26,724 bases of DNA from a virus: the IMG/VR virus record IMGVR_UViG_3300046467_001259, positions 1-26,724 of that record, one strand, 5' to 3'. Below are positions 9,348-26,724 of this stretch, one piece after another. Within the stretch, counting starts at the first letter, position 1. Every line of letters begins with the position of its first letter. Position numbers and translations under genes: made by a program. Under the pieces are notes generated by a model that was not told where the DNA came from, did not search any database, and was given only the letters and a program-made list of their open reading frames with translations.

Positions 9348-9800
9348 TTATTTCTCCTTGGGTAAGACGTAACTATCGCCTACTTGTACTGCTCCCAATT
9401 TTTCATATAGTTTCTTTGTTCTGTCCATGTCTCCAATCCCAGAATTAACTCCAAGGTTGATCTCTGCCACACCTTTGTTTACTCTGGCCCATTGGATGTA
9501 TCTTCTTAAAAGACTTGAACCCCATCCCCTTCCTTTCTGAGTTACATAAAAGAAAAGATCAGCAGATTGTTTCTTTCTGGAGTACCATAACTGGTTAGTA
9601 ACACCAATAAAGACACCCTCTATTACACCAACTATCTCTACTACATTAACCAAGTGCTCTGCTGAGAGAATACAAACTTGAACATTCTTTCTGATAATTT
9701 CTTCAGCTAAAGGAACACCCTTAGAGGAGGATTCTTTATGTGCTTCCTTAACAACTTTTATTATTTGAGGAATGTCGCCATTAACAGCGGCTCTAATCAA
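9348..9800 (-). CDS. GNAT-family N-acetyltransferase, 150 aa
   Basis: The length and layout match a single GNAT domain: an N-terminal MIRAAVNGDIPQI segment (strand 1 and helix 1), a central beta strand, then the acetyl-CoA pyrophosphate-binding motif A (QKGRGWGSSLLRRYIQWA, about residues 88-105), and the C-terminal DRTKKLYEKLGA motif B typical of the family. Such enzymes move an acetyl group from acetyl-CoA to an amine of a protein or small molecule; the substrate is unknown here. The start is TTG at 9800, overlapping the preceding TGA as TTGA, with GAAGGTGG upstream. No ATG closer to the start would preserve the N-terminal fold. Its place between two putative ejection proteins suggests acetylation of a virion component or of a host target. 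Confidence 0.82.
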   Translation of the reverse strand: MIRAAVNGDIPQIIKVVKEAHKESSSKGVPLAEEIIRKNVQVCILSAEHLVNVVEIVGVIEGVFIGVTNQLWYSRKKQSADLFFYVTQKGRGWGSSLLRRYIQWARVNKGVAEINLGVNSGIGDMDRTKKLYEKLGAVQVGDSYVLPKEK

Positions 9801-14121: not shown

Positions 14122-14807
14122 TCTGGCACTACCGTATAGTTTTCAAGATTCTGAACAACAGAGAACCTTCTATCCCTCTGTGATGGAAGTTGGTCAGCTT
14201 CTAACTTACCAAGCAAGTCATTAAACTCAGAAATAGCAGAACCCATAACTTCTGCGGCATCGTTCTGCTCTGCATAATACACTTTAGCCCTACATATAAT
14301 AATTCTTTGGAATCTTGTAGGTATCACAGGGGTATCTGTAGTAGCGCTTAATGTGGTTGGAGTTTTCCAATATTCGGCAGTAAGTGTTGTTGCCGCATCA
14401 GGAGTAGGATATAAATCAATTACATTATCTGGCTTAACTGAAAAGAACTCTGGAACTCCAGTGTCTACAGTTCCATATTTATAATCTTCCCTATATTCTC
14501 TCCATCCTACATATCCAAGGGGTTGCCAATTTGCAGACGTTGGGGCATAGACAACAGAATCTATGTTCCACTGAGCCAGATCAGATGGAGAACTTATGGT
14601 TGATGTTGAAGCAACAGTAGTTGTAGAATGTTCTCCCCATAAAAAATCCCAGTTAAACCACATACTACAGATATCTGTATTAGCATCTTTAATGTATCGA
14701 ACTACGTCTGCTTCATCTTCTGCTGTTGGTGTAACAGTAGACGGGCCTGTGCCGGGTATTCCAACTTCCCTAGCCATATCTTGACAAAGTTCTATATATG
14801 TACTCAT
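14118..14807 (-). CDS. Head-tail adaptor (connector) protein, 229 aa
   Basis: The protein begins MSTYIELCQDMAREVGIPGT, followed by a helix with an EADVVRYIKDANTDICSMW segment. A beta part (QWNIDSVVY, LGYVGWREYREDYKYG, PEFFSVKPDNVIDLYPTPD) and a long C-terminal helix (AISEFNDLLGKLEADQLPSQ) follow. This order and length match adaptor proteins of the SU10 or P22-gp4/T7-gp11 functional class, which form the ring between portal and nozzle. It sits directly upstream of the nozzle gene, with an ATGA overlap on both sides (glycosyltransferase before, nozzle N-terminus after), exactly where an adaptor is expected. The residues PTPDAATTLTAEYWK are the kind of conserved beta hairpin seen in the family. 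I am fairly sure of the role but not of the exact subfamily. Confidence 0.75.
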   Translation of the reverse strand: MSTYIELCQDMAREVGIPGTGPSTVTPTAEDEADVVRYIKDANTDICSMWFNWDFLWGEHSTTTVASTSTISSPSDLAQWNIDSVVYAPTSANWQPLGYVGWREYREDYKYGTVDTGVPEFFSVKPDNVIDLYPTPDAATTLTAEYWKTPTTLSATTDTPVIPTRFQRIIICRAKVYYAEQNDAAEVMGSAISEFNDLLGKLEADQLPSQRDRRFSVVQNLENYTVVPE

Positions 14808-15880
14808 TTAAGATTCCTTAATATATCTTGCGCTACTTTAAGATGGTCTATATTTGCGGCGCATAAAGAAGCCCCTGTTTCCTTATCCCTATTACAAGTG
14901 GCAAAGCCAAAATGTAACTTATGGCAAGGAAAGCAAGGGCAATCATCTGGTTCCATAGATGTGGTGTTTCTCCAATGCTTTGTTAAATTCTCTTTAGATG
15001 AATGAGAAAGAAAAATACACTTGTGATTTTTCATGGCACTAGCAGCATTTAACAAACCAGTTTCTGGCCCTACAATTACATCACAATGAGGAAGAAACGA
15101 AAGAGTTTTTGTAATAGACCATTTTCCAGACTTGGTTATTACTCTAGGTTCATTCTCCCATCCAGCCTCAAGAAGCTGGCAAATTTCGTCACCCATTGTA
15201 ATTATGCTAACATCCTTTCTTTTTAAAAGAAGAGTAGCAATAACATTATCTATCCAAGGATACACTTTATGAACAGAAGAACCAGAGAGAACAACCATTA
15301 CCACATTCTTTGTCTTAATTTTCTTCCTAGTTTTTTTAGCCCATCTCTTTTCTAATGATGAAGGATAATAAAAAGGAGCATGTTTAAAATCTATACCCGC
15401 TATTCTATGAGTTTCCTCAAGATAGTTTTTATTACACAGTTCGTGTATCCTTTCCTTGGGCCAATCATATTCTTCACAGCCTTCAACAACATGAGGTCTA
15501 CCATCAATCTCAATAGTTCTTTTAGGATTAAGAAGTAAAGTTCCTTCTATAGATTCTGATAACTGGATAAACTTATCAAAACATAGCGACATTTTTTCCC
15601 AGTATTCGCCAAGAGAAAAATTACTTATTTGATTATCATTTTGAACTATCAACTCATCAACATAAGGATTATTCAAAAGAAGAGAATTACCTATCTCAGT
15701 AGTATTAACACAGACCCTATATCCCATTTCCTTTAACACTGGAAACAAAGAGGAAGCCTGAATCATATCCCCAAAACCACCGTACCTTACAACACATGCA
15801 GTTTTTTCTTCTCTTATACCACCAAAATCTTTTGGCAAGTAGTCTTCTACTATTTTAGTAGTAACATATATCTTCTTCAT
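14804..15880 (-). CDS. GT9-family glycosyltransferase (ADP-heptose transferase-like), 358 aa
   Basis: The N-terminal half has the GT-B/GT9 opening VVRYGGFGDMIQASSLFPVL (residues 30-49). The C-terminal half has VVLSGSSVHKVYPW (196-209), a TMGDE turn (228-232) and the nucleotide-sugar site CDVIVGPETGLLNAASA (266-282), followed by an HSSKENLTKHW segment. These are hallmarks of heptosyltransferases such as RfaF/WaaF. The length is typical. A Cys cluster near the end (C314, C316, C319, C329, C340) could bind a metal. Likely reaction: transfer of a sugar from a nucleotide-activated donor to a glycan or protein; the acceptor is unknown. The gene overlaps its neighbours by ATGA and lies between head and adaptor genes. 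A sampled 60 bases (15301-15360) is 32% GC against 48% in the coat gene (17101-17160), so it may be acquired. Confidence 0.83.
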   Translation of the reverse strand: MKKIYVTTKIVEDYLPKDFGGIREEKTACVVRYGGFGDMIQASSLFPVLKEMGYRVCVNTTEIGNSLLLNNPYVDELIVQNDNQISNFSLGEYWEKMSLCFDKFIQLSESIEGTLLLNPKRTIEIDGRPHVVEGCEEYDWPKERIHELCNKNYLEETHRIAGIDFKHAPFYYPSSLEKRWAKKTRKKIKTKNVVMVVLSGSSVHKVYPWIDNVIATLLLKRKDVSIITMGDEICQLLEAGWENEPRVITKSGKWSITKTLSFLPHCDVIVGPETGLLNAASAMKNHKCIFLSHSSKENLTKHWRNTTSMEPDDCPCFPCHKLHFGFATCNRDKETGASLCAANIDHLKVAQDILRNLK

Positions 15881-18986: not shown

Positions 18987-19313
18987 TTATTCCGCTTCTT
19001 TGTACCTAGCCAACTTTTCAGCATTGTCTCCGTCTGCAATAATCGCATCCAGCCACTTAAGTAGCTTTAATGGGGTAGCGAGGTCATTAGATATTTTACG
19101 GTATTGTTTTAGTTCTTCTTCTGAAGAACCAGACCACTCCTGAAAAGTCATTTTCTGAAGTTCACCAAGAGCATTTCTATAATCAGCTATTGCTCTCTCA
19201 ACTAAAGCTTTCCCGGTTGGAGTTCTTATAAATTCTTGTGTGCCACGACCAATTTTAGTTCTTGTTATTAACTCATCTATTTTAGGTGCGGCTGGGTTTT
19301 GATAATCTGTCAT
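18987..19313 (-). CDS. Hypothetical head-region protein, 108 aa
   Basis: An all-helical, charged small protein: IDELITRTKIGRGTQEFIRT, then RAIADYRNALGELQKMTFQE, and a C-terminal LKLLKWLDAIIADGDNAEKL. It starts at ATG 19313 in an ATGA overlap with the portal stop and ends 15 bases before the scaffold gene. Helical proteins of this size between portal and scaffold occur in many podoviruses and are thought to help assembly, but I do not recognise this family. The helix pattern could mediate binding to the portal crown or to the scaffold. Confidence 0.68.
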   Translation of the reverse strand: MTDYQNPAAPKIDELITRTKIGRGTQEFIRTPTGKALVERAIADYRNALGELQKMTFQEWSGSSEEELKQYRKISNDLATPLKLLKWLDAIIADGDNAEKLARYKEAE

Positions 19314-21526
19314 CCTACCTCATATGGTATTTTATTATATTTATCTCTTGCCATGGTTCCGACCTTACTTACATTATCTTTGTCTTCTACCATGCGCCTT
19401 TCGATTTCTTGATCAATAACTTGATTGAGTAAGGCATCTCTTTGCAACATCAATTCCGCTCGTCTAGTATCTGCATCTTGTTGTTTTATACTAGCCTCAC
19501 TTTTTTGAACATTAAGTTTTCCAGCATCAGCTTGAGTTCCTATAATTGTTTTCTGCAATTCTGTCTGCGCTCTTAACTGAGCAGCCCTTAAGGTAGCTTC
19601 TGCCTTCATCTCTTCTATCGTCAAGCGACCCTGCATCTTAACCTGATCAGTTTCAAGCATCTGTCCCATCTGATCAATCTGTGCTTGCATTTCTTCTACC
19701 TGTGGATCAACATCATCGGTCGGCATTAAGAATCTTGAACCATCCTTATATCCAAGTTGTGCAAAAACTTCTTTTGCTACCTCTTCTACATTAAACATTC
19801 CTTCCATCTGTGGAAACTGAGAAAGACTTCCAATGCCATAAAGAAGATTCTGAACTCTTCCAACGGGATCAGTAGCATTCATTCCAACATTGACTTTTAA
19901 TAGAACATTCTGCTTAAGAAGTTCATCCATAACTTCATCTTGTCCGAAATCTATAGGACTTTCGGCTTCTTCAGACTCATCACCTATACCAGCAAATGCC
20001 ATTACATGCTCATCTGTTTCGTAATACTGTTCAAGCTTTAACAGTTGTTTCAATACTGGCTCAACCCAAGTTTCTGCAAAAGTTCTTAAAACAAATTCAG
20101 AAACACTATTAGTATTGCCAGCAATTAACTCCATGCCGCCTACTGTCTCATTAAGGTTACGAGCGCCACCTACGGTGGAGGCTGAGAAGTTACCTTGCAG
20201 TTCATCGAAATCCATATTTATTCGATCCTGCTCTTGGTAAGCAGACGCAGTGACATCTCTCGTTTCAACGATTCTGACGTCTTGGTCTGGATCATCCATC
20301 TCAACCGCACCACCGGGAACAGACCTAAATAGGGCATCTAAGTCTATATTTCGATCCCTCCGAATATGGTAGCGCTTATTCATCGCCAACTTAATGTTGT
20401 CGAATCTTTGATTCCATATATCGTTTGATGCGGCTTGCAACTCTTCGGTGAGTTCTACAGTTGCTGATGGATAAACACGGTGCGCTTCAATGTTCAGCTT
20501 TCCCATCACGTAGGGGCGCTCGTTGTCTTTTAACCACGGATACATCTCTTGCAAAGGTTTAGGATCAGTTAAAAGATATTGAGTGCCAGCAGTAAAAAAG
20601 CACCAATCCTGACCTTCTTTCTTAATAATATTTTTATGGACCCATACAATTTTAAATTCATCTACGGTTTCAAATTGATCTTCTAATGGGTCTTCTCTAG
20701 GTTCTTCCCTAGTCAATCGCAAAGTATCATCATCTTGTGTCTGAGTAGACAGAAGTTCACCCATAGATAATTTGTGCCATTCTTTGCTATCAATCCTTTC
20801 CATGACATCTTGAACGAACATAGGAATTAAATGGATAACATATGGAGATGAAGAGATAGGATCATACCAATCTGAAGCTGGATCAATTCTAAAATTCTCT
20901 GGCTCTACAACTTCTATAACTGGAAAGTCTTTTATAGTGGAGGTTACTTTCTCCCTAACAGGCTTTCCTTCCATATCAACAACTTCGCCACCATCATCAT
21001 CCACAGAAGCAAAAGTCTCATCTCTCTCTTCAAATTCCCAATACTGATGAGATACAACAGTTCCATAAATAGCCGCATCCTGAAGGGCTGTCACCATAGT
21101 GGTGAACCAAGGAATGGTATTAGTCAGTCTATACTGCATAATTGACTGGGCAATAGCTGCTCCAGCAATTTGCTGTGGATCATTAGGATTAGCGGGACTA
21201 ATGCTCATCATATCTTCATTAGTGAAGAATGCTGTAGCCATAGCCGCTTCTAACTTTCTAACGGTTGTCCTTGTCTTTGGTCTGAATAATCTAGACCTCT
21301 TATCATACGCGGAAGTTAAATACTTAGACCCCGGCGGATGCCTACTATTAAAGTTAGATAAATTCTTTTCCCATTGATATCTTAGATTAGTATCAACCCA
21401 GTCAGTAGAAGAATCATAGGCATTCCTAGCAAGGCTTAACCATTGCTCATTTTTATCACCTATCTCTTCACCACCAGCAGGAGGAATATCTTCATTTAAT
21501 GGTGGTTGTGGATTAATAAGTGACAT
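19310..21526 (-). CDS. Portal (head-tail connector) protein, 738 aa
   Basis: The length fits large podovirus portals. After a Pro-rich leader come LFRPKTRTTVRKLEAAMATA and ALQDAAIYGTVVSHQYWEF, with an acidic beta wing (DDGGEVVDMEGKPVREKV), then VIEVVEPENFRIDPASDWYD, a conserved-looking portal segment. The stem region has LNETVGGMELIAGNTNSVSE and LRTFAETWVEPVLKQLLKLE. The last about 110 residues form a long coiled coil (QVEEMQAQIDQMGQMLETDQ on to QVIDQEIERRM), typical of the crown or barrel of P22-type portals. It forms a dodecameric channel for DNA at one capsid vertex. ATG 21526 overlaps the preceding stop as TAATG, and the next gene overlaps by ATGA. It likely works with scaffold and coat just downstream. 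Confidence 0.87.
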   Translation of the reverse strand: MSLINPQPPLNEDIPPAGGEEIGDKNEQWLSLARNAYDSSTDWVDTNLRYQWEKNLSNFNSRHPPGSKYLTSAYDKRSRLFRPKTRTTVRKLEAAMATAFFTNEDMMSISPANPNDPQQIAGAAIAQSIMQYRLTNTIPWFTTMVTALQDAAIYGTVVSHQYWEFEERDETFASVDDDGGEVVDMEGKPVREKVTSTIKDFPVIEVVEPENFRIDPASDWYDPISSSPYVIHLIPMFVQDVMERIDSKEWHKLSMGELLSTQTQDDDTLRLTREEPREDPLEDQFETVDEFKIVWVHKNIIKKEGQDWCFFTAGTQYLLTDPKPLQEMYPWLKDNERPYVMGKLNIEAHRVYPSATVELTEELQAASNDIWNQRFDNIKLAMNKRYHIRRDRNIDLDALFRSVPGGAVEMDDPDQDVRIVETRDVTASAYQEQDRINMDFDELQGNFSASTVGGARNLNETVGGMELIAGNTNSVSEFVLRTFAETWVEPVLKQLLKLEQYYETDEHVMAFAGIGDESEEAESPIDFGQDEVMDELLKQNVLLKVNVGMNATDPVGRVQNLLYGIGSLSQFPQMEGMFNVEEVAKEVFAQLGYKDGSRFLMPTDDVDPQVEEMQAQIDQMGQMLETDQVKMQGRLTIEEMKAEATLRAAQLRAQTELQKTIIGTQADAGKLNVQKSEASIKQQDADTRRAELMLQRDALLNQVIDQEIERRMVEDKDNVSKVGTMARDKYNKIPYEVG

Positions 21527-21889: not shown

Positions 21890-22027
21890 CTATCTTTTCC
21901 TTTTTGGAGCGTGAAACGTTCTTTTACCATCATTAAATACATATGTAACAACAGGTCTGGTTCTTCTTGTAGGGTCAGCTTTATCTACTAACTCTGTCCA
22001 AGGAATTCTTTTTTCTTTTGTGTTCAT
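21890..22027 (-). CDS. Small basic protein, 45 aa
   Basis: A complete short frame starts at ATG 22027, overlapping the preceding stop as ATGA, and ends with TAG at 21890. It fills what would otherwise be an unexplained gap. The peptide starts MNTKEKRIPWTELVDKADPT and ends in a strongly basic tail (FNDGKRTFHAPKRKR). The overlap style is that of the whole operon, and the next start follows its stop by one base, so it is probably translated. Net charge is clearly positive; binding to nucleic acid or to an acidic partner is possible, but no family is recognised. Confidence 0.65.
   Translation of the reverse strand: MNTKEKRIPWTELVDKADPTRRTRPVVTYVFNDGKRTFHAPKRKR
21894..21901 (-). promoter_or_regulatory. 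AGGAAAAG ribosome binding site deciding the start of the 120-aa gene
   Basis: AGGAAAAG on the minus strand, inside the last codons of the 45-aa gene, lies five bases before ATG 21888. It supports the shorter start over the TTG at 21951. Confidence 0.65.
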
Positions 22028-22668
22028 GTAATGATTATCTCTGGAATATACTTAGGTTGACGTACTAAAGGCCACTCAGGATCATAAGGAGTTAGCACAA
22101 GATTTCCAGCAGAATCTATAGTAAACCCGTATGTAACTCCGACTATTGGGAATAGAGTTCCTTTTCCCCATGTATCTGAAGAAGCCGCCCACGTTCCAAC
22201 TACTTCATCCCAAGGAGCTCCAAGATTTAATCCAGTTAAAGAAGCGGCATCTGGATAAAATAAATGTCCAGCTAATTCAGTAGGAGCATATCCAGTAAGA
22301 GCTAAAGAAGCAACAGGAATTACAGTATGATGTAATTCATCTACTGATGGGATACTTGTCGTAAGAGTTAAACTAACACCATCTGGAGTTATAACTCTTC
22401 CTATTGATATAGTAGGAGAAATTGGATTTTGATCCCAATCCCAATAAGCATCATTCCATTGGTTAGGTACATCTGCCCAGTCATAAGTTTGTATTAACTC
22501 TAGATTGGTATTACCTACTGCTATATTAAAGTTAGTAGAGTCAGAAGGTGCATGCCCAGTTAAGGCTAATGACCCCACAGCAGGATTTATATAAGGACCA
22601 TTCCAAGCCCTACTAAATTTAGAGTCGTCCCAATCTCCAGTTGTTGCCGCCCATGTGCTGATTGCCAT
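22024..22668 (-). CDS. Beta-rich structural protein with repeated SLALTGxAP units, 214 aa
   Basis: The protein starts with a Trp-rich leader (MAISTWAATTGDWDDSKFSR). It has two clear copies of a SLALTG(H/Y)AP motif (near residues 33-41 and 124-132) plus a weaker ASLTGLNLGAP copy, alternating with beta-strand-like Thr/Ser/Val segments (TPDGVSLTLTTSIPS). Another Trp motif, GTWAASSDTWGKGT, resembles the leader. Such repeats are common in phage fibre or decoration proteins, so a virion surface role is likely but not proven. ATG 22668 follows CAGGAGCATAA, one base from the carbamoyltransferase stop. It may be an early head or tail appendage, or the substrate of the preceding enzymes; the latter is speculative. 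Confidence 0.68.
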   Translation of the reverse strand: MAISTWAATTGDWDDSKFSRAWNGPYINPAVGSLALTGHAPSDSTNFNIAVGNTNLELIQTYDWADVPNQWNDAYWDWDQNPISPTISIGRVITPDGVSLTLTTSIPSVDELHHTVIPVASLALTGYAPTELAGHLFYPDAASLTGLNLGAPWDEVVGTWAASSDTWGKGTLFPIVGVTYGFTIDSAGNLVLTPYDPEWPLVRQPKYIPEIIIT

Positions 22669-24297
22669 TTATGCTCCTGTTAGCATCGTGCCCTTTTCTG
22701 GAAACCACAACACATCTATTTTGGTAGTTTCAAACATATCTATTGCCTCTTCTACTGTTTCTATCAATGGATTTCCAGCCACATTAAAACTTGTATTTAA
22801 TAGAACAGGCACACCAGTTATGAGTTCAAACTCTCTTAATAGTTCATAGTAATGCCACAAATCTTCATCTACGGTTTGTATGCGACAAGAGTTATCAACA
22901 TGAACAATGCCCGGAATTATATCTAATTTATCCTCCTTAACAGGAAATGATACAGTCATAAATGGAGAATCGTTTAGCCCATGCATTTCAAAATATTCTT
23001 TTGCTCGATCCTTTAAAACAGACCCAGCGAATGGCCTGTACCATTCTCTATTTTTTACAGAGTTTATTATTCGTTTAGCATCTGGATTTCTTGCATCAAA
23101 CAAGATTGACCGATTACCTAACGCTCTAGGGCCAGCCTCTGCTTGACCGTTATAAACTGCTACTATCTTTTGTTGGGATATTAATGAAGCAATCTCACCA
23201 GTTGTAACTTGATCTCCGATATCTGGAACAACATCTTTAACATGATTAAAGAAAGTATCCTTTAATTTATGCACGTCAGAGGAATTACTTTTCTCTCTAT
23301 AAACAAGCATTGCAGACCCAATGCTATTACCACTATCATCTGCAAGAGGCTCGAAATAGAAATTAACGTGAGGTAAATTCTTTACAAGATACTCGTTAGT
23401 TACAACATTTAATCCATAACCACCAGTCATACAAACATTATGTATGGCGTACTGTTGTACCATATCCTCAACTAAATTTAAAACTACTGATTGTGTTTGC
23501 TTCTGTACCTGATAAGCGTAATCAGCATATAAAGAATATCTATACTCAGAAACATTATCTACCTGATAAAAAATATAATCTTTGTATGCTGACTCTTTTC
23601 CAACATAGTGAAAAAACAAATTAGTATTCGGTACGCCCCCAACAAACAGTGGTTCAAATTCTGAATCTTCACCGTAGGCGGCCAGACCCATCGTCTTCCC
23701 ATTCTCTAGTATATTCTGTCCAATCAATGAAGTGGCAGTCTCATAAACCTTAGTTATGTTCATAGTGCTATCCGCAACAAACTTACAATTGGGATACCTG
23801 CCTTTCAACTCAACTAACTTCTTATGATTATCTACATCATACTCCTGACCTATATTCTTAAGCCAGAAAGATTTGTATACGGGCCTAAACTCATGCGGAT
23901 AACGGGCAATGAAGACAGTTTCCGCCTCTCTCATAGAACCATGATTTGAGCCATTCCTATCTATAACAAACAATAAAGACTCTTCAAATCCGCTATTATA
24001 AAATGCAAGACTTGCATGAGATAGGTGATGCTCATCACACATTCGAGACACTGGACATCCAAAGTGCTCTTTTATGTATTCCTCTAATTTATTATTAGAG
24101 TCATCAAGGTAGTCGGGAGAAGAGATAACAGCGTAATCAACGTCATCTAACGATGAGGCATAATCTAGACATCTATATGGGTGCTTATCTCTTTTTACAC
24201 CAGACAAGCGCTCTTCCTTTGAAAAATAAACTACCCTTCCATCTTCAACAATAGCTACACTGCTGTCGTGAAAAGGGGAAACCCCAAGCACTCTCAT
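22669..24297 (-). CDS. NodU/CmcH/TobZ-family O-carbamoyltransferase, 542 aa
   Basis: The length matches the two-domain family. The N-terminal Kae1-like (ASKHA) part has GVSPFHDSSVAIVEDG (5-20), SKEERLSGVKRDKHP (26-40), the metal/carbamoyl site EHHLSHASLAFY (89-100) and FVIDRNGSNHG (about 110-120). The C-terminal part has the hallmark EAGPRALGNRSILFDARNP (near 390), EWYRPFAGSVL and PVLLNTSFNVAGNPLIET. In known members carbamoyl phosphate and ATP form carbamoyl-adenylate, and the carbamoyl group is placed on a hydroxyl of a sugar or antibiotic. It follows the oxygenase gene by one base; no clear Shine-Dalgarno precedes ATG 24297, so expression may depend on coupling. All landmark motifs are present, so it is probably active. 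The acceptor is unknown. Confidence 0.88.
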   Translation of the reverse strand: MRVLGVSPFHDSSVAIVEDGRVVYFSKEERLSGVKRDKHPYRCLDYASSLDDVDYAVISSPDYLDDSNNKLEEYIKEHFGCPVSRMCDEHHLSHASLAFYNSGFEESLLFVIDRNGSNHGSMREAETVFIARYPHEFRPVYKSFWLKNIGQEYDVDNHKKLVELKGRYPNCKFVADSTMNITKVYETATSLIGQNILENGKTMGLAAYGEDSEFEPLFVGGVPNTNLFFHYVGKESAYKDYIFYQVDNVSEYRYSLYADYAYQVQKQTQSVVLNLVEDMVQQYAIHNVCMTGGYGLNVVTNEYLVKNLPHVNFYFEPLADDSGNSIGSAMLVYREKSNSSDVHKLKDTFFNHVKDVVPDIGDQVTTGEIASLISQQKIVAVYNGQAEAGPRALGNRSILFDARNPDAKRIINSVKNREWYRPFAGSVLKDRAKEYFEMHGLNDSPFMTVSFPVKEDKLDIIPGIVHVDNSCRIQTVDEDLWHYYELLREFELITGVPVLLNTSFNVAGNPLIETVEEAIDMFETTKIDVLWFPEKGTMLTGA

Positions 24298-24298
24298 T

Positions 24299-24844
24299 CT
24301 AAATATAGTTTACATTTACTACTAATCGTGACCTGCTATTAGTGCAGGTAGTAGAGCAGTGCTTAGTCAGTCCATCAAAAAGTAAAGCCCTATTTTCTAC
24401 TGAATCTACTTTAGTGCCGTCCTCTAGTGTCGTCATTCCATTATTTGTATTAATATAAAGAATAGCCACTTTATGTGGATAAAAATTATCAACATGAAAG
24501 TTATTCTGTATTTTTTTATGGGTATGAGGGTAATTATTTACCCTTAATTTAATTAATGAATTAACTTCTAACTTGTGGACAAAGGGAAGAAATAGATTAT
24601 AGAAGCCACTTGTAACCCCTCTTGGATATCCTTCTTCACTATCCTGTCTAATGCTTGAAAATAGAACGTGTGAAAAGTACGTGTCCAACATGCTCTCTTC
24701 ATCACCAACCCCAGATACCTTATCTTGATGATACCAAGGAAACCCGGCGCTAAGTAACATATTCTTTATTGGTAGAAACTCACTCTCGATTAAGAAGTTA
24801 TCTATTACTTCATAAGGTTTCAAACGTAACTTCTTATTCGGCAT
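24299..24844 (-). CDS. 2-oxoglutarate/Fe(II)-dependent oxygenase (prolyl-hydroxylase-like), 181 aa
   Basis: The jelly-roll core carries the complete iron triad: HVD at 117-119 (NNFHVDNFYPHKVAILYINT), distal His 162 (LLFDGLTKHCSTTCTNSRSR), and Arg 171 or 173 to hold 2-oxoglutarate, ending in the family-typical LVVNVNY strand. The length is that of compact phage and bacterial hydroxylases. Known relatives hydroxylate protein side chains, small molecules or nucleobases using O2 and 2-oxoglutarate. The gene overlaps the other oxygenase by 11 bases and is followed after one base by the carbamoyltransferase, so the three are surely co-expressed. Sampled 24541-24600 is only 27% GC, lower than the coat gene. 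Confidence 0.85.
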   Translation of the reverse strand: MPNKKLRLKPYEVIDNFLIESEFLPIKNMLLSAGFPWYHQDKVSGVGDEESMLDTYFSHVLFSSIRQDSEEGYPRGVTSGFYNLFLPFVHKLEVNSLIKLRVNNYPHTHKKIQNNFHVDNFYPHKVAILYINTNNGMTTLEDGTKVDSVENRALLFDGLTKHCSTTCTNSRSRLVVNVNYI

Positions 24845-25610
24845 AAAGTGTTACTTCTCCACAAAGAGTAACCCTTTGCACGTCTGCCTGAAACGCATGA
24901 ACATAATGGTTAACCCAAGAGGGCCAAATCATTAGGTCACCTCTTTCAGTTAATTTTGCAAACTGCGCTATACAAAACGGCAACCTCTCTTCTCCATAAT
25001 TCCATTGAGTAGTTCCCGGCCCTTCAGATGTTACTCTATTAGAATTAAGTAAGTATTCTTCCTGTATCTCTTTAGGAATTTGTAATGTTATGCAAAATTG
25101 TAAATCACCGCCGTGAGTATGTGAAGGGAAATACTCTGTTTTACTTTGAAAATTTACCCACAACTTATCAAGCCGCCAGATTATATTATGATCTCCTGAA
25201 CTATCTACGTCTAGTTCTGGATTCCTTCCTATTATATGCCTAAAGGAGTTAGGGTTATATTTTTTAGCGGCTTCTAAATATAAAGAAATATACTTTGAAA
25301 ATTTTGAATTAAACCACACAGAAGGGTTCTTGAATTCAAATCCATAGGTTCTTACTAAGGAACCCCAACTAGAGTTTTCTTCTTCAGTTTTTAATGCCTT
25401 CTTTCTGTTCTTCTTGCTTTTATCCAAGAGAAACTTCACAAGATCAGGATGTATCTTACTGCAAAGGAGGAATGGCCCCCAGAAAGGAAACCAATAACCT
25501 ATCTCTTCATCTTCACCATTTTCTCGCATCATCTTTTCATAAAGGTAATCTTTTACTTTAAACTGGGGAGTCAAACCTCTATCTCTTGCCCCCACTTTCC
25601 TACGGGACAA
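24834..25610 (-). CDS. Second 2-oxoglutarate/Fe(II)-oxygenase-like protein, up to 258 aa
   Basis: The C-terminal half has a double-stranded beta-helix pattern of the PF13759-like phage oxygenase group: LDKLWVNFQSKTEYFPSHTH, GGDLQFCITLQIP, a variable loop, then GDLMIWPSWVNHYVHAFQAD and RVTLCGEVTL. Candidate iron ligands are H164/H166 (HTH, not the classic HxD, with D169 just after) and H235 or H238; R246 could bind 2-oxoglutarate. The N-terminal half (YWFPFWGPFLLCSKIHPDLV and a helical middle) is a family-specific extension. The start is uncertain: TTG 25610 gives the longest form and overlaps the upstream gene by 40 bases, while TTG 25574 (TTGA overlap) or ATG 25532 are alternatives. The protein differs clearly from the other oxygenase, so they are not a recent duplication. 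Confidence 0.75.
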   Translation of the reverse strand: MSRRKVGARDRGLTPQFKVKDYLYEKMMRENGEDEEIGYWFPFWGPFLLCSKIHPDLVKFLLDKSKKNRKKALKTEEENSSWGSLVRTYGFEFKNPSVWFNSKFSKYISLYLEAAKKYNPNSFRHIIGRNPELDVDSSGDHNIIWRLDKLWVNFQSKTEYFPSHTHGGDLQFCITLQIPKEIQEEYLLNSNRVTSEGPGTTQWNYGEERLPFCIAQFAKLTERGDLMIWPSWVNHYVHAFQADVQRVTLCGEVTLYAE

Positions 25611-25735
25611 GACATAAACTTATACTTAGTTTTAACCGCCATCACGCATCCACACTTCTTGCAAAAATAGTTTTTATAATACTCGCATTCTTCGCATATG
25701 TCCAGTCTCTTTTTGGCTAAACTCTTATCCCTCAA
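25571..25735 (-). CDS. Cys-rich putative zinc-binding mini-protein
   Basis: The recognisable part is RLDICEECEYYKNYFCKKCG followed by CVMAVKTKYKFM, then SCPVGKW. Cysteines at CxxC, CxxCxC and a final C give six possible ligands, as in small zinc-ribbon-like proteins I associate with marine myoviruses and podoviruses. I place the start at TTG 25735, where it overlaps the preceding stop by 11 bases. ATG codons at 25849, 25792 and 25783 would extend the protein by 16-38 residues, but only by running 59-125 bases into the upstream gene, unlike the operon's usual 1-11 bases. The function is unknown; a protein-protein adaptor or nucleic-acid binder is possible. The stop overlaps the oxygenase N-terminus. 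Confidence 0.68.
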   Translation of the reverse strand: MRDKSLAKKRLDICEECEYYKNYFCKKCGCVMAVKTKYKFMSCPVGKWGQEIEV

Positions 25736-26105
25736 AGTCTGGGTCGTATTCAGAAACAAAGTCCCACTCTCCAGTGCCTTCATTCCATTCATATAAATAT
25801 CTTTCATCTGGATAGGGTTTTGGACACTCCCATAGACAAGTACTTTCATTTAAAGTCCATGATGGGTATGGTTGCGGTGGAATAAACACATCCCTAGTTA
25901 CGTCATATGTGAATCCAACACCTGCATAGTTTTTCCTAAGCGCGACACCATTATCTTCTTCATTTGAATTTGGAGCGTAATGCTTTCCGCCCCTTGTATT
26001 GTAAGAGGTCTGAACCCATTGCCCATCTACAGTATCTACATGGTTCTGTTCAGCAACTATAACATTGGTGACAATTCCACTTTCTACTTTAGCAAAATGA
26101 CTCAT
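25725..26105 (-). CDS. MSHF-type marine phage protein, 126 aa
   Basis: The opening MSHFAKVESGIVTNVIVAEQ and the middle NYAGVGFTYDVTRDVFIPPQ, then PYPSWTLNESTCLWECPKPY, match a small protein I know from cyanophage and other marine phage genomes, where it occurs alone or joined to tail or fibre proteins. The function is unproven; the Trp/Tyr-rich strands suggest a small beta domain. ATG 26105 overlaps the preceding TGA as ATGA, linking it to the Gly-rich tail gene, which supports a tail-associated role. The C-terminus is acidic (EWDFVSEYDPDFEG). It is complete, with no missing part seen. Confidence 0.75.
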   Translation of the reverse strand: MSHFAKVESGIVTNVIVAEQNHVDTVDGQWVQTSYNTRGGKHYAPNSNEEDNGVALRKNYAGVGFTYDVTRDVFIPPQPYPSWTLNESTCLWECPKPYPDERYLYEWNEGTGEWDFVSEYDPDFEG

Positions 26106-26724
26106 ACTTCATACCTCACTACTACAATTCCTGAACCACCGTTTCCGCCAGCATAACCACCCTGACCGCCGCTACCGCCGCCCCCTGCACCGAGGTTTGC
26201 GGTTCCTGACGTACCAGCGGAATTTCCTACTGCTCCAGCACCACCTCCGCCATTCCCACCAGCGCCAGCCGAGCCGCACCATGCGCCCCCGCCGCCCCCG
26301 CCGCCGTAATAAACGTCTGAGCCAGTTTGGTAATCATTTTGGAGTCCAGTATATCCAGCAGTAGGCCCATTGCCTGATGACCAGCCTGCTCCTGCTCCGC
26401 CACCTCCGCCTCCGTAGTGACAGCCACCCCAATATCCTGTTCCTCCGGTATTTCCATAGCCAGTACCCGTATGGGTGCTTGGGTCACTTTGGTTACTTGT
26501 ACCTCCGGGCCACGTTGCGCCACCCCACGGAGCGCCACCACCGCCTCCCGATCCACCGACTTGGCCGGGACCGTTTGACTCGTAGTTTCCTCCACCGCCT
26601 CCAGCATTAGCAGTTTCACTAAAAGCAGTTGTATTATTTCCGGGATACTGACCAGAACCAGCCGAGCCAGTTCCACCGCCACCTATGGTAATGGTATATT
26701 CTTGAGCACTAAGAACTGCCTCTG
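26102..26724 (-). CDS. Glycine-rich tail/adhesin-like protein, C-terminal 207 residues (5' end cut by window edge)
   Basis: The frame enters from the right edge and ends with TGA at 26102. Visible sequence begins EAVLSAQEYTITIGGGGTGS. It continues as a long Gly/Ala/Ser/Asn-rich part with many GGGGG runs punctuated by Trp and Tyr, and ends YAGGNGGSGIVVVRYEV, a closing strand I know from Gly-rich phage and bacterial appendage proteins. Poly-Gly-rich tips of this kind (for example the S16-type gp38 adhesin) can form packed polyglycine helices that contact the receptor; this link is by analogy. Sampled 26521-26580 is 70% GC because of Gly codons. The minus-strand frame 26227-26682 is a shadow of this gene. 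N-terminal domains lie outside the window. Confidence 0.78.
   Translation of the reverse strand, partial: EAVLSAQEYTITIGGGGTGSAGSGQYPGNNTTAFSETANAGGGGGNYESNGPGQVGGSGGGGGAPWGGATWPGGTSNQSDPSTHTGTGYGNTGGTGYWGGCHYGGGGGGAGAGWSSGNGPTAGYTGLQNDYQTGSDVYYGGGGGGGAWCGSAGAGGNGGGGAGAVGNSAGTSGTANLGAGGGGSGGQGGYAGGNGGSGIVVVRYEV

Follow-up and report, generated by a model that had tools for sequence, protein, structure and literature searches.

Two 2-oxoglutarate oxygenases and a carbamoyltransferase as a probable filling of a tailoring-enzyme cargo slot in a marine virus lineage

The present analysis concerns a cassette of three genes in a 26.7-kb marine virus record (IMG/VR record IMGVR_UViG_3300046467_001259, positions 1 to 26,724, here termed the window and numbered G000), whose genes are located almost all on the minus strand. 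The cassette encodes two 2-oxoglutarate (2OG)-Fe(II) oxygenases, OxyA and OxyB, and an O-carbamoyltransferase (CTase), and on balance we are inclined to view it as one of several alternative fillings of a cargo slot that accommodates tailoring enzymes within the late virion operon of a lineage of marine tailed viruses; the products of the cassette would hydroxylate and cap a substrate. It consists of three intact open reading frames (ORFs) extending from 25610 to 22669:

24834..25610, minus strand: OxyA, a 2OG-Fe(II) oxygenase of the PF13759/phrog_81 type, assigned by Pfam, phrog_81, invariant residues and Foldseek
24299..24844, minus strand: OxyB, a 2OG-Fe(II) oxygenase with a predicted prolyl-hydroxylase-like fold, assigned by AlphaFold2, Foldseek and invariant residues
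22669..24297, minus strand: CTase, a full-length O-carbamoyltransferase of the TobZ/NodU type, assigned by PF16861, PF02543, PDB matches and invariant columns

OxyA and OxyB share 11 bp (24834-24844), a single base pair (24298) separates OxyB from the CTase, and the stop codon of the latter abuts the ATG of the following gene g214 (22668) with zero gap; the junctions of 11 bp and 1 bp listed in an earlier note on this DNA are thus an overlap and a gap, respectively. The cassette is found at 100% identity in two further IMG/VR contigs and is therefore no accident of assembly. Its presence, as noted earlier, is confirmed.

A cargo slot with swapped content

The slot was mapped in the loci of 80 relatives of the capsid protein and 36 relatives of g214. 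OxyA and OxyB homologues were detected by local hidden Markov models (HMMs) run on retrieved loci, whole-contig alignment scans being unsuited for proteins without conserved stretches, and since the iterated HMMs of both families recruit each other's members (183 hits in common), they served only as a generic detector of oxygenases. The frame of the slot is constant and comprises four conserved ORFs, the Gly-rich gene, the phrog_7759-like gene, the cargo, g214, g141 and the gene of the portal protein. Tailoring enzymes reside within it in 13 of the 23 distinct loci (after clustering, with visible borders), which is an undercount, as the enzymes of L195 and L032 lie just beyond the counted span and L200 was omitted due to an unlabelled border gene. 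Where the window carries OxyA, OxyB and the CTase, L018 (with a capsid that is 97% identical) contains three oxygenases and L026 (96% identical) a lone CTase. Three oxygenases are also present in L207, oxygenases together with a phrog_2954 gene and a tryptophan halogenase in the L029/L188 group, oxygenases and a halogenase in L086, L194 and L200, and a sulfotransferase in L063, L192, L202 and L204; the slot is empty in L196, L201 and L203. Some loci have part of their cargo ahead of the phrog_7759-like gene, and in L195 oxygenases and a sulfotransferase are placed upstream of it. The borders of the slot, the swapping of its content and the families of the enzymes it accommodates are evident from these loci. 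In L194, one ORF of the slot (L194:2475-3476) combines an N-terminal sulfotransferase region (PF03567, covering part of the profile only) with a C-terminal 2OG oxygenase. This fusion suggests that making a hydroxyl and then capping it is a general logic of the slot, and it agrees with the earlier note, where hydroxylation followed by capping was put forward as the simplest chemistry.

When 61 CTases were arranged in a maximum-likelihood tree, the window protein fell into a clade with L107-L111 and L127 (support 100/100) and its counterpart in L026 into a different clade with L129 (100/99), and the slot has therefore obtained CTases on at least two separate occasions. The genomic neighbourhood of the CTase was further analysed in 60 clusters (at 70% identity) drawn from cyanophages and contigs of marine phages. 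Oxygenases, halogenases and sulfotransferases were counted as tailoring genes, and in the control a non-enzyme gene picked at random from the locus took the place of the CTase. A tailoring gene directly adjoins the CTase in 23 of these clusters compared to 9.3 expected, a number reached in none of 20,000 draws; the clusters are partly kin by descent, which is in part answered by the tree, where the state 'adjacent tailoring enzyme' undergoes 14 changes, at least 11 of them on well-supported branches. The association of the CTase with oxygenases and other tailoring genes is thus stronger than expected by chance, and the scattering of these genes over independent random loci, which the earlier note had held against a joint pathway, is not what we find. 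In L109, which is part of the clade of the window CTase, the order is the same, with a phrog_274-type oxygenase preceding the CTase at a 4-bp overlap. Eight oxygenase-type ORFs (by first labelling) lie beside the CTase in L140 and L144, and in the cyanophages S-CAM8 and P-RSM4 it adjoins 4-5 oxygenases within the tail-fibre region. Its neighbours also include Gly_rich_2 fibres, phrog_7759, tryptophan halogenases and distal subunits of tail fibres.

As a separate observation, the overlap of exactly 11 bp found between OxyA and OxyB recurs between tailoring genes in L009, L096, L097, L113, L114, L126, L144 and L145, and it is commoner in adjacent tailoring genes (13/170) than in other gene pairs (20/1376, Fisher p=1.8e-5).

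On the minus strand of the window, the genes follow the order Gly-rich fibre-like, phrog_7759-like, DUF6171, OxyA, OxyB, CTase, g214, g141 and portal, succeeded by scaffold-like, capsid, GT9-like and tail genes, an acetyltransferase and one very large ORF. The features surrounding the cassette are:

26102..26722, minus strand: Gly-rich fibre-like protein (Gly_rich_2/phrog_2295; PF21722, 2.7e-9), truncated by the end of the window
25725..26105, minus strand: phrog_7759-like gene, upstream border of the slot (phrog_7759, 1.6e-29), kept in relatives
25571..25849, minus strand: small Cys-rich DUF6171 ORF between this border and OxyA (PF19668, 3.5e-8)
22024..22668, minus strand: g214, a Trp-rich tail-like protein, downstream border of the slot (by alignment), kept in relatives
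19310..21526, minus strand: portal protein (phrog_1216, 6.6e-26), which places the slot within the virion structural operon
14804..15880, minus strand: GT9-like gene, a core gene of the lineage outside the cassette (in 36/36 relatives; Pfam GT9 E=0.032)

The Gly-rich protein is found at full length in L003, where it contains 286 residues (L003:4649-5509, match 1.1e-12). The DUF6171 ORF probably starts near 25732, and related small Cys-rich ORFs recur at the slots of L032, L055, L086 and L006 (tblastn) and also of L204. The g214 family is characterized by many W(x)nGDW-like repeats and, in its alignment, by a strongly conserved N-terminus; the position of such a Trp-rich appendage next to a slot that is able to hold tryptophan halogenases is suggestive of a possible connection. 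A phrog_1249 acetyltransferase gene amid the tail genes (9348-9800) is retained in relatives such as L029, L053, L060 and L093. The GT9-like gene had been considered in the earlier note as a possible part of a decoration route. Located 6.8 kb downstream of the cassette, it is present in all relatives with enough sequence irrespective of the cargo in their slot and is therefore not tied to the cassette; its match to the Pfam family is weak (14 bits, with a cut-off of 22), and we have rejected it as a member of the cassette or route.

The enzymes of the cassette

OxyA matches PF13759 (2OG-FeII_Oxy_5) with an E-value of 1.4e-9 and 38.7 bits, above the curated Pfam cut-off of 27, and phrog_81 with 2.6e-15. 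Its candidate metal ligands H164xH166...H235 and the putative 2OG-binding R246 (in the numbering of the 258-aa ORF) are, together with W151, invariant in an alignment of nine sequences of the family, and HxH thus constitutes the family state. The same HxH is found at the matching place in the solved PF13759-type relatives 3bvc and 2rg4. An altered metal site, which the earlier note had considered owing to the presence of HTH instead of HxD, is thus rejected. The OxyA model (pLDDT 77) identifies 3bvc (E=8.4e-9) as best match in Foldseek, followed by 2rg4 (7.7e-8) and prolyl hydroxylases, and it displays the double-stranded beta-helix fold of the solved relatives at modest TM-scores of 0.40-0.50. 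Its start at the TTG at 25610 is doubtful; a second in-frame TTG at 25574 overlaps with the upstream stop codon (TTGA), and the protein may start there with an N-terminus that is about 12 residues shorter.

For OxyB, a Pfam scan gave no match, and 2OG-FeII_Oxy_3 is matched by 6 of its 18 relatives. Its candidate motif contains H117xD119...H162 and R173, with N103, H117, D119, F156 and R173 being invariant across the 18 relatives and H162 being retained in most. The AlphaFold2 model (pLDDT 89) matches PHD2/EGLN1, a Dictyostelium PHD and a Pseudomonas P4H in Foldseek, and the top 50 PDB matches are proteins of the 2OG superfamily, mostly prolyl hydroxylases; in both OxyA and OxyB, these matches are evidence on the fold only and none on the substrate. 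No significant match was obtained in a PDB sequence search with either protein alone as query. The two unlike 2OG oxygenases with candidate ligands described in the earlier note are thus confirmed by Pfam, phrog_81, motifs and fold models.

OxyB is also related to phrog_274 (1.7e-42), which is labelled 'DNA endonuclease V', and the name 'denV / DNA endonuclease V' is borne by many cyanophage genes, with relatives in 260 phage records. With no Pfam match to a DenV/Pyr_excise domain in OxyB or 17 relatives, no endonuclease folds among the OxyB fold matches listed, and a model resembling 2OG-dependent prolyl hydroxylases, we have rejected this assignment. As judged from sequence and predicted structure, the phrog_274 family is very probably mislabelled and composed of 2OG-Fe(II) oxygenases with a prolyl-hydroxylase-like fold. 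Proteins of phrog_2954, which carry the label 'ferrochelatase' (L114:11969-12598, L188:1838-2434, L096:3815-4423 and others), have an HxDR...H(W/Y)R pattern in common and seem to represent a further 2OG oxygenase subfamily.

The CTase shows strong matches to PF16861 (6.6e-57, 192 bits, cut-off 27) and PF02543 (5.9e-23, 82 bits, cut-off 24), and its 542 residues align over the full range of TobZ, GdmN and NovN in a PDB search, in agreement with its initial description as full-length enzyme of the NodU/TobZ type. Its Kae1-like N-terminal part contains HHxxH (90-94) and D321 and its YrdC-like C-terminal part GPRALGNRS (389-397), and these key motifs lie in invariant columns of the alignment. The homology to TobZ, NodU, GdmN and NovN thus extends over both domains at whole length with the HHxxH metal motif and the GPRALGNRS motif retained, whereas, unlike these proteins, the phage CTase is encoded next to 2OG oxygenases within a virion operon. 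As families, 2OG oxygenases act on C-H bonds to produce hydroxyls, and TobZ-type enzymes use carbamoyl phosphate to form a carbamoyl-adenylate, from which the carbamoyl group is transferred to a hydroxyl. The carbamate-and-hydroxyl chemistry assigned to the cassette is thus well supported by the family membership of its proteins. No Pfam match to the domains of aspartate or ornithine carbamoyltransferases (ATCase/OTCase) was found in the CTase, and its assignment to the pyrimidine or arginine route was rejected. A cyanophage homologue has been read as an enzyme of pyrimidine biosynthesis (PMC9146016), a reading that is not backed by its family. In cyanophage S-RIM44 (L099:4998-6619), the CTase is divided between two ORFs whose order is reversed, the gene of the C-terminal domain coming first, and a ThyX gene adjoins them; in PQ898602.1 (L098:5001-6593) it is misannotated as '2OG-Fe(II) oxygenase'.

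Candidate substrates and relation to known systems

In the mechanism that we propose, OxyA and OxyB would hydroxylate a substrate late in infection using Fe(II), O2 and 2-oxoglutarate, and the CTase, supplied with carbamoyl phosphate and ATP, would transfer a carbamoyl group to a hydroxyl, perhaps the one made by OxyA and OxyB, with the enzymes presumably acting in series to install the OH and then cap it. Their target might be a virion appendage that is made at the same time, such as the Gly-rich fibre or g214, or a glycan at the surface of virion or host, and the outcome would be chemical variation without change in the appendage genes. We favour appendage side chains over a surface glycan, since the slot keeps a constant place next to the genes of the Gly-rich protein and g214, is part of a late operon and accommodates a range of chemistries that are compatible with side chains. 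We tentatively propose that marine phages contain a swappable slot for post-translational (or glycan) tailoring next to the tail-fibre genes, by which virion appendages would be hydroxylated and then carbamoylated, sulfated or halogenated and the receptor-binding surface would be chemically diversified, a reading that deserves consideration even if it may well turn out to be incorrect.

Several observations weigh against this proposal. It is common for oxygenases to be present where a CTase is absent, and the reverse, a CTase with no oxygenase, is seen in L026 and L127; a sequential action is therefore not obligatory. The association between the CTase and tailoring genes comes in several arrangements and not in a single fixed operon, and enzymes in one variable slot may share merely a tolerated site of insertion. 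In P-SSM2, S-CAM1 and Sf-FS3, the CTase is accompanied by heptose-activating and other sugar genes, which points to sugars. An appendage or glycan as substrate of the cassette is a candidate only and as such unproven.

A glycan is considered as target on account of the heptose and sugar genes that accompany other CTases of cyanophages. In this case the CTase would, akin to NodU, carbamoylate a sugar of a host-surface or virion glycan and the oxygenases would act on the same glycan or its lipid, resulting in receptor masking or superinfection exclusion. These genes encode heptose kinase/adenylyltransferase, phosphoheptose isomerase and nucleotide-sugar epimerase and adjoin several cyanophage CTases within tail-fibre regions; the sulfotransferases of the slot could use sugars too, and a GT9-like gene is present in the genome. 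However, sugar-activating genes are absent both from the vicinity of the window cassette and from the slots of relatives, the GT9-like gene belongs to the core and is independent of the cassette, which itself occupies a late structural position, and we know of no PF13759- or P4H-like oxygenases that hydroxylate glycans. We thus regard this route as possible but rather unlikely.

Still less probable, in our opinion, is a slot that would serve as a permissive insertion site for unlinked accessory metabolic genes with unrelated roles, for example in the modulation of 2-oxoglutarate/NtcA nitrogen signalling or in the making of a small molecule. Such a role in 2OG/NtcA signalling was proposed by Sullivan et al. 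for cyanophage oxygenases (PMC3037559), and the high variability of the slot content would fit with a merely permissive site, but this content consists nearly entirely of tailoring chemistries, with general metabolic genes not being the pattern, the same enzyme set recurs by fibre genes in T4-like phages, and the adjacency of tailoring genes to the CTase exceeds the control from the same locus.

A hypermodification of DNA, where an oxygenase or other enzyme would make 5-hydroxymethylcytosine (5hmC) for conversion into 5-carbamoyloxymethylcytosine by the CTase, is highly improbable and a base, which the earlier note had listed among the hydroxylation targets, thus disfavoured: although a TobZ-type CTase of a sewage phage catalyses this reaction in vitro (PMC8670742), thymidylate synthase was found in 2/48 CTase-bearing virus records, both of about 350 kb, and in 0/14 records of the window's lineage (most being fragments, so that absence is not final), OxyA and OxyB match PF13759 and prolyl-hydroxylase folds with only a weak match of OxyB to a Tet-like dioxygenase (E-value 0.44), and the slot is located among structural genes. 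The 5hmC carbamoyltransferases of the MetaGPA study, which are found together with genes of the thymidylate-synthase type and of dCMP deaminase (PMC8670742), resemble the window protein as phage O-carbamoyltransferases of the same family whose target hydroxyl is supplied by another enzyme, whereas in our case the neighbours are oxygenases and fibre genes.

In T4-like cyanophages, 2OG-Fe(II) oxygenase and CTase genes have been listed as separate accessory genes (PMC3037559). S-CAM8, P-RSM4 and S-SSM5 contain the same enzyme families in the same mix by tail-fibre genes, but a swappable slot or pathway is not described in that account. The marine viral flavin halogenase VirX1, as cited in PMC10452541, provides a further parallel, since the tryptophan-halogenase family also fills the slot in relatives, although the window is without a halogenase. 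As anticipated in the earlier note, the enzyme types are each known from phages, and we found no description of the cassette, slot or pathway in open-access papers.

Collectively, phage 2OG oxygenases, CTases and halogenases are abundant at sea, where they tend to be catalogued as scattered auxiliary metabolic genes. If they were part of one system for the tailoring of appendages or surfaces, a large number of ocean virus genes that are so far unexplained would obtain a common role that is testable by mass spectrometry of virions, and phages would gain a chemical means to vary their receptor-binding surface.

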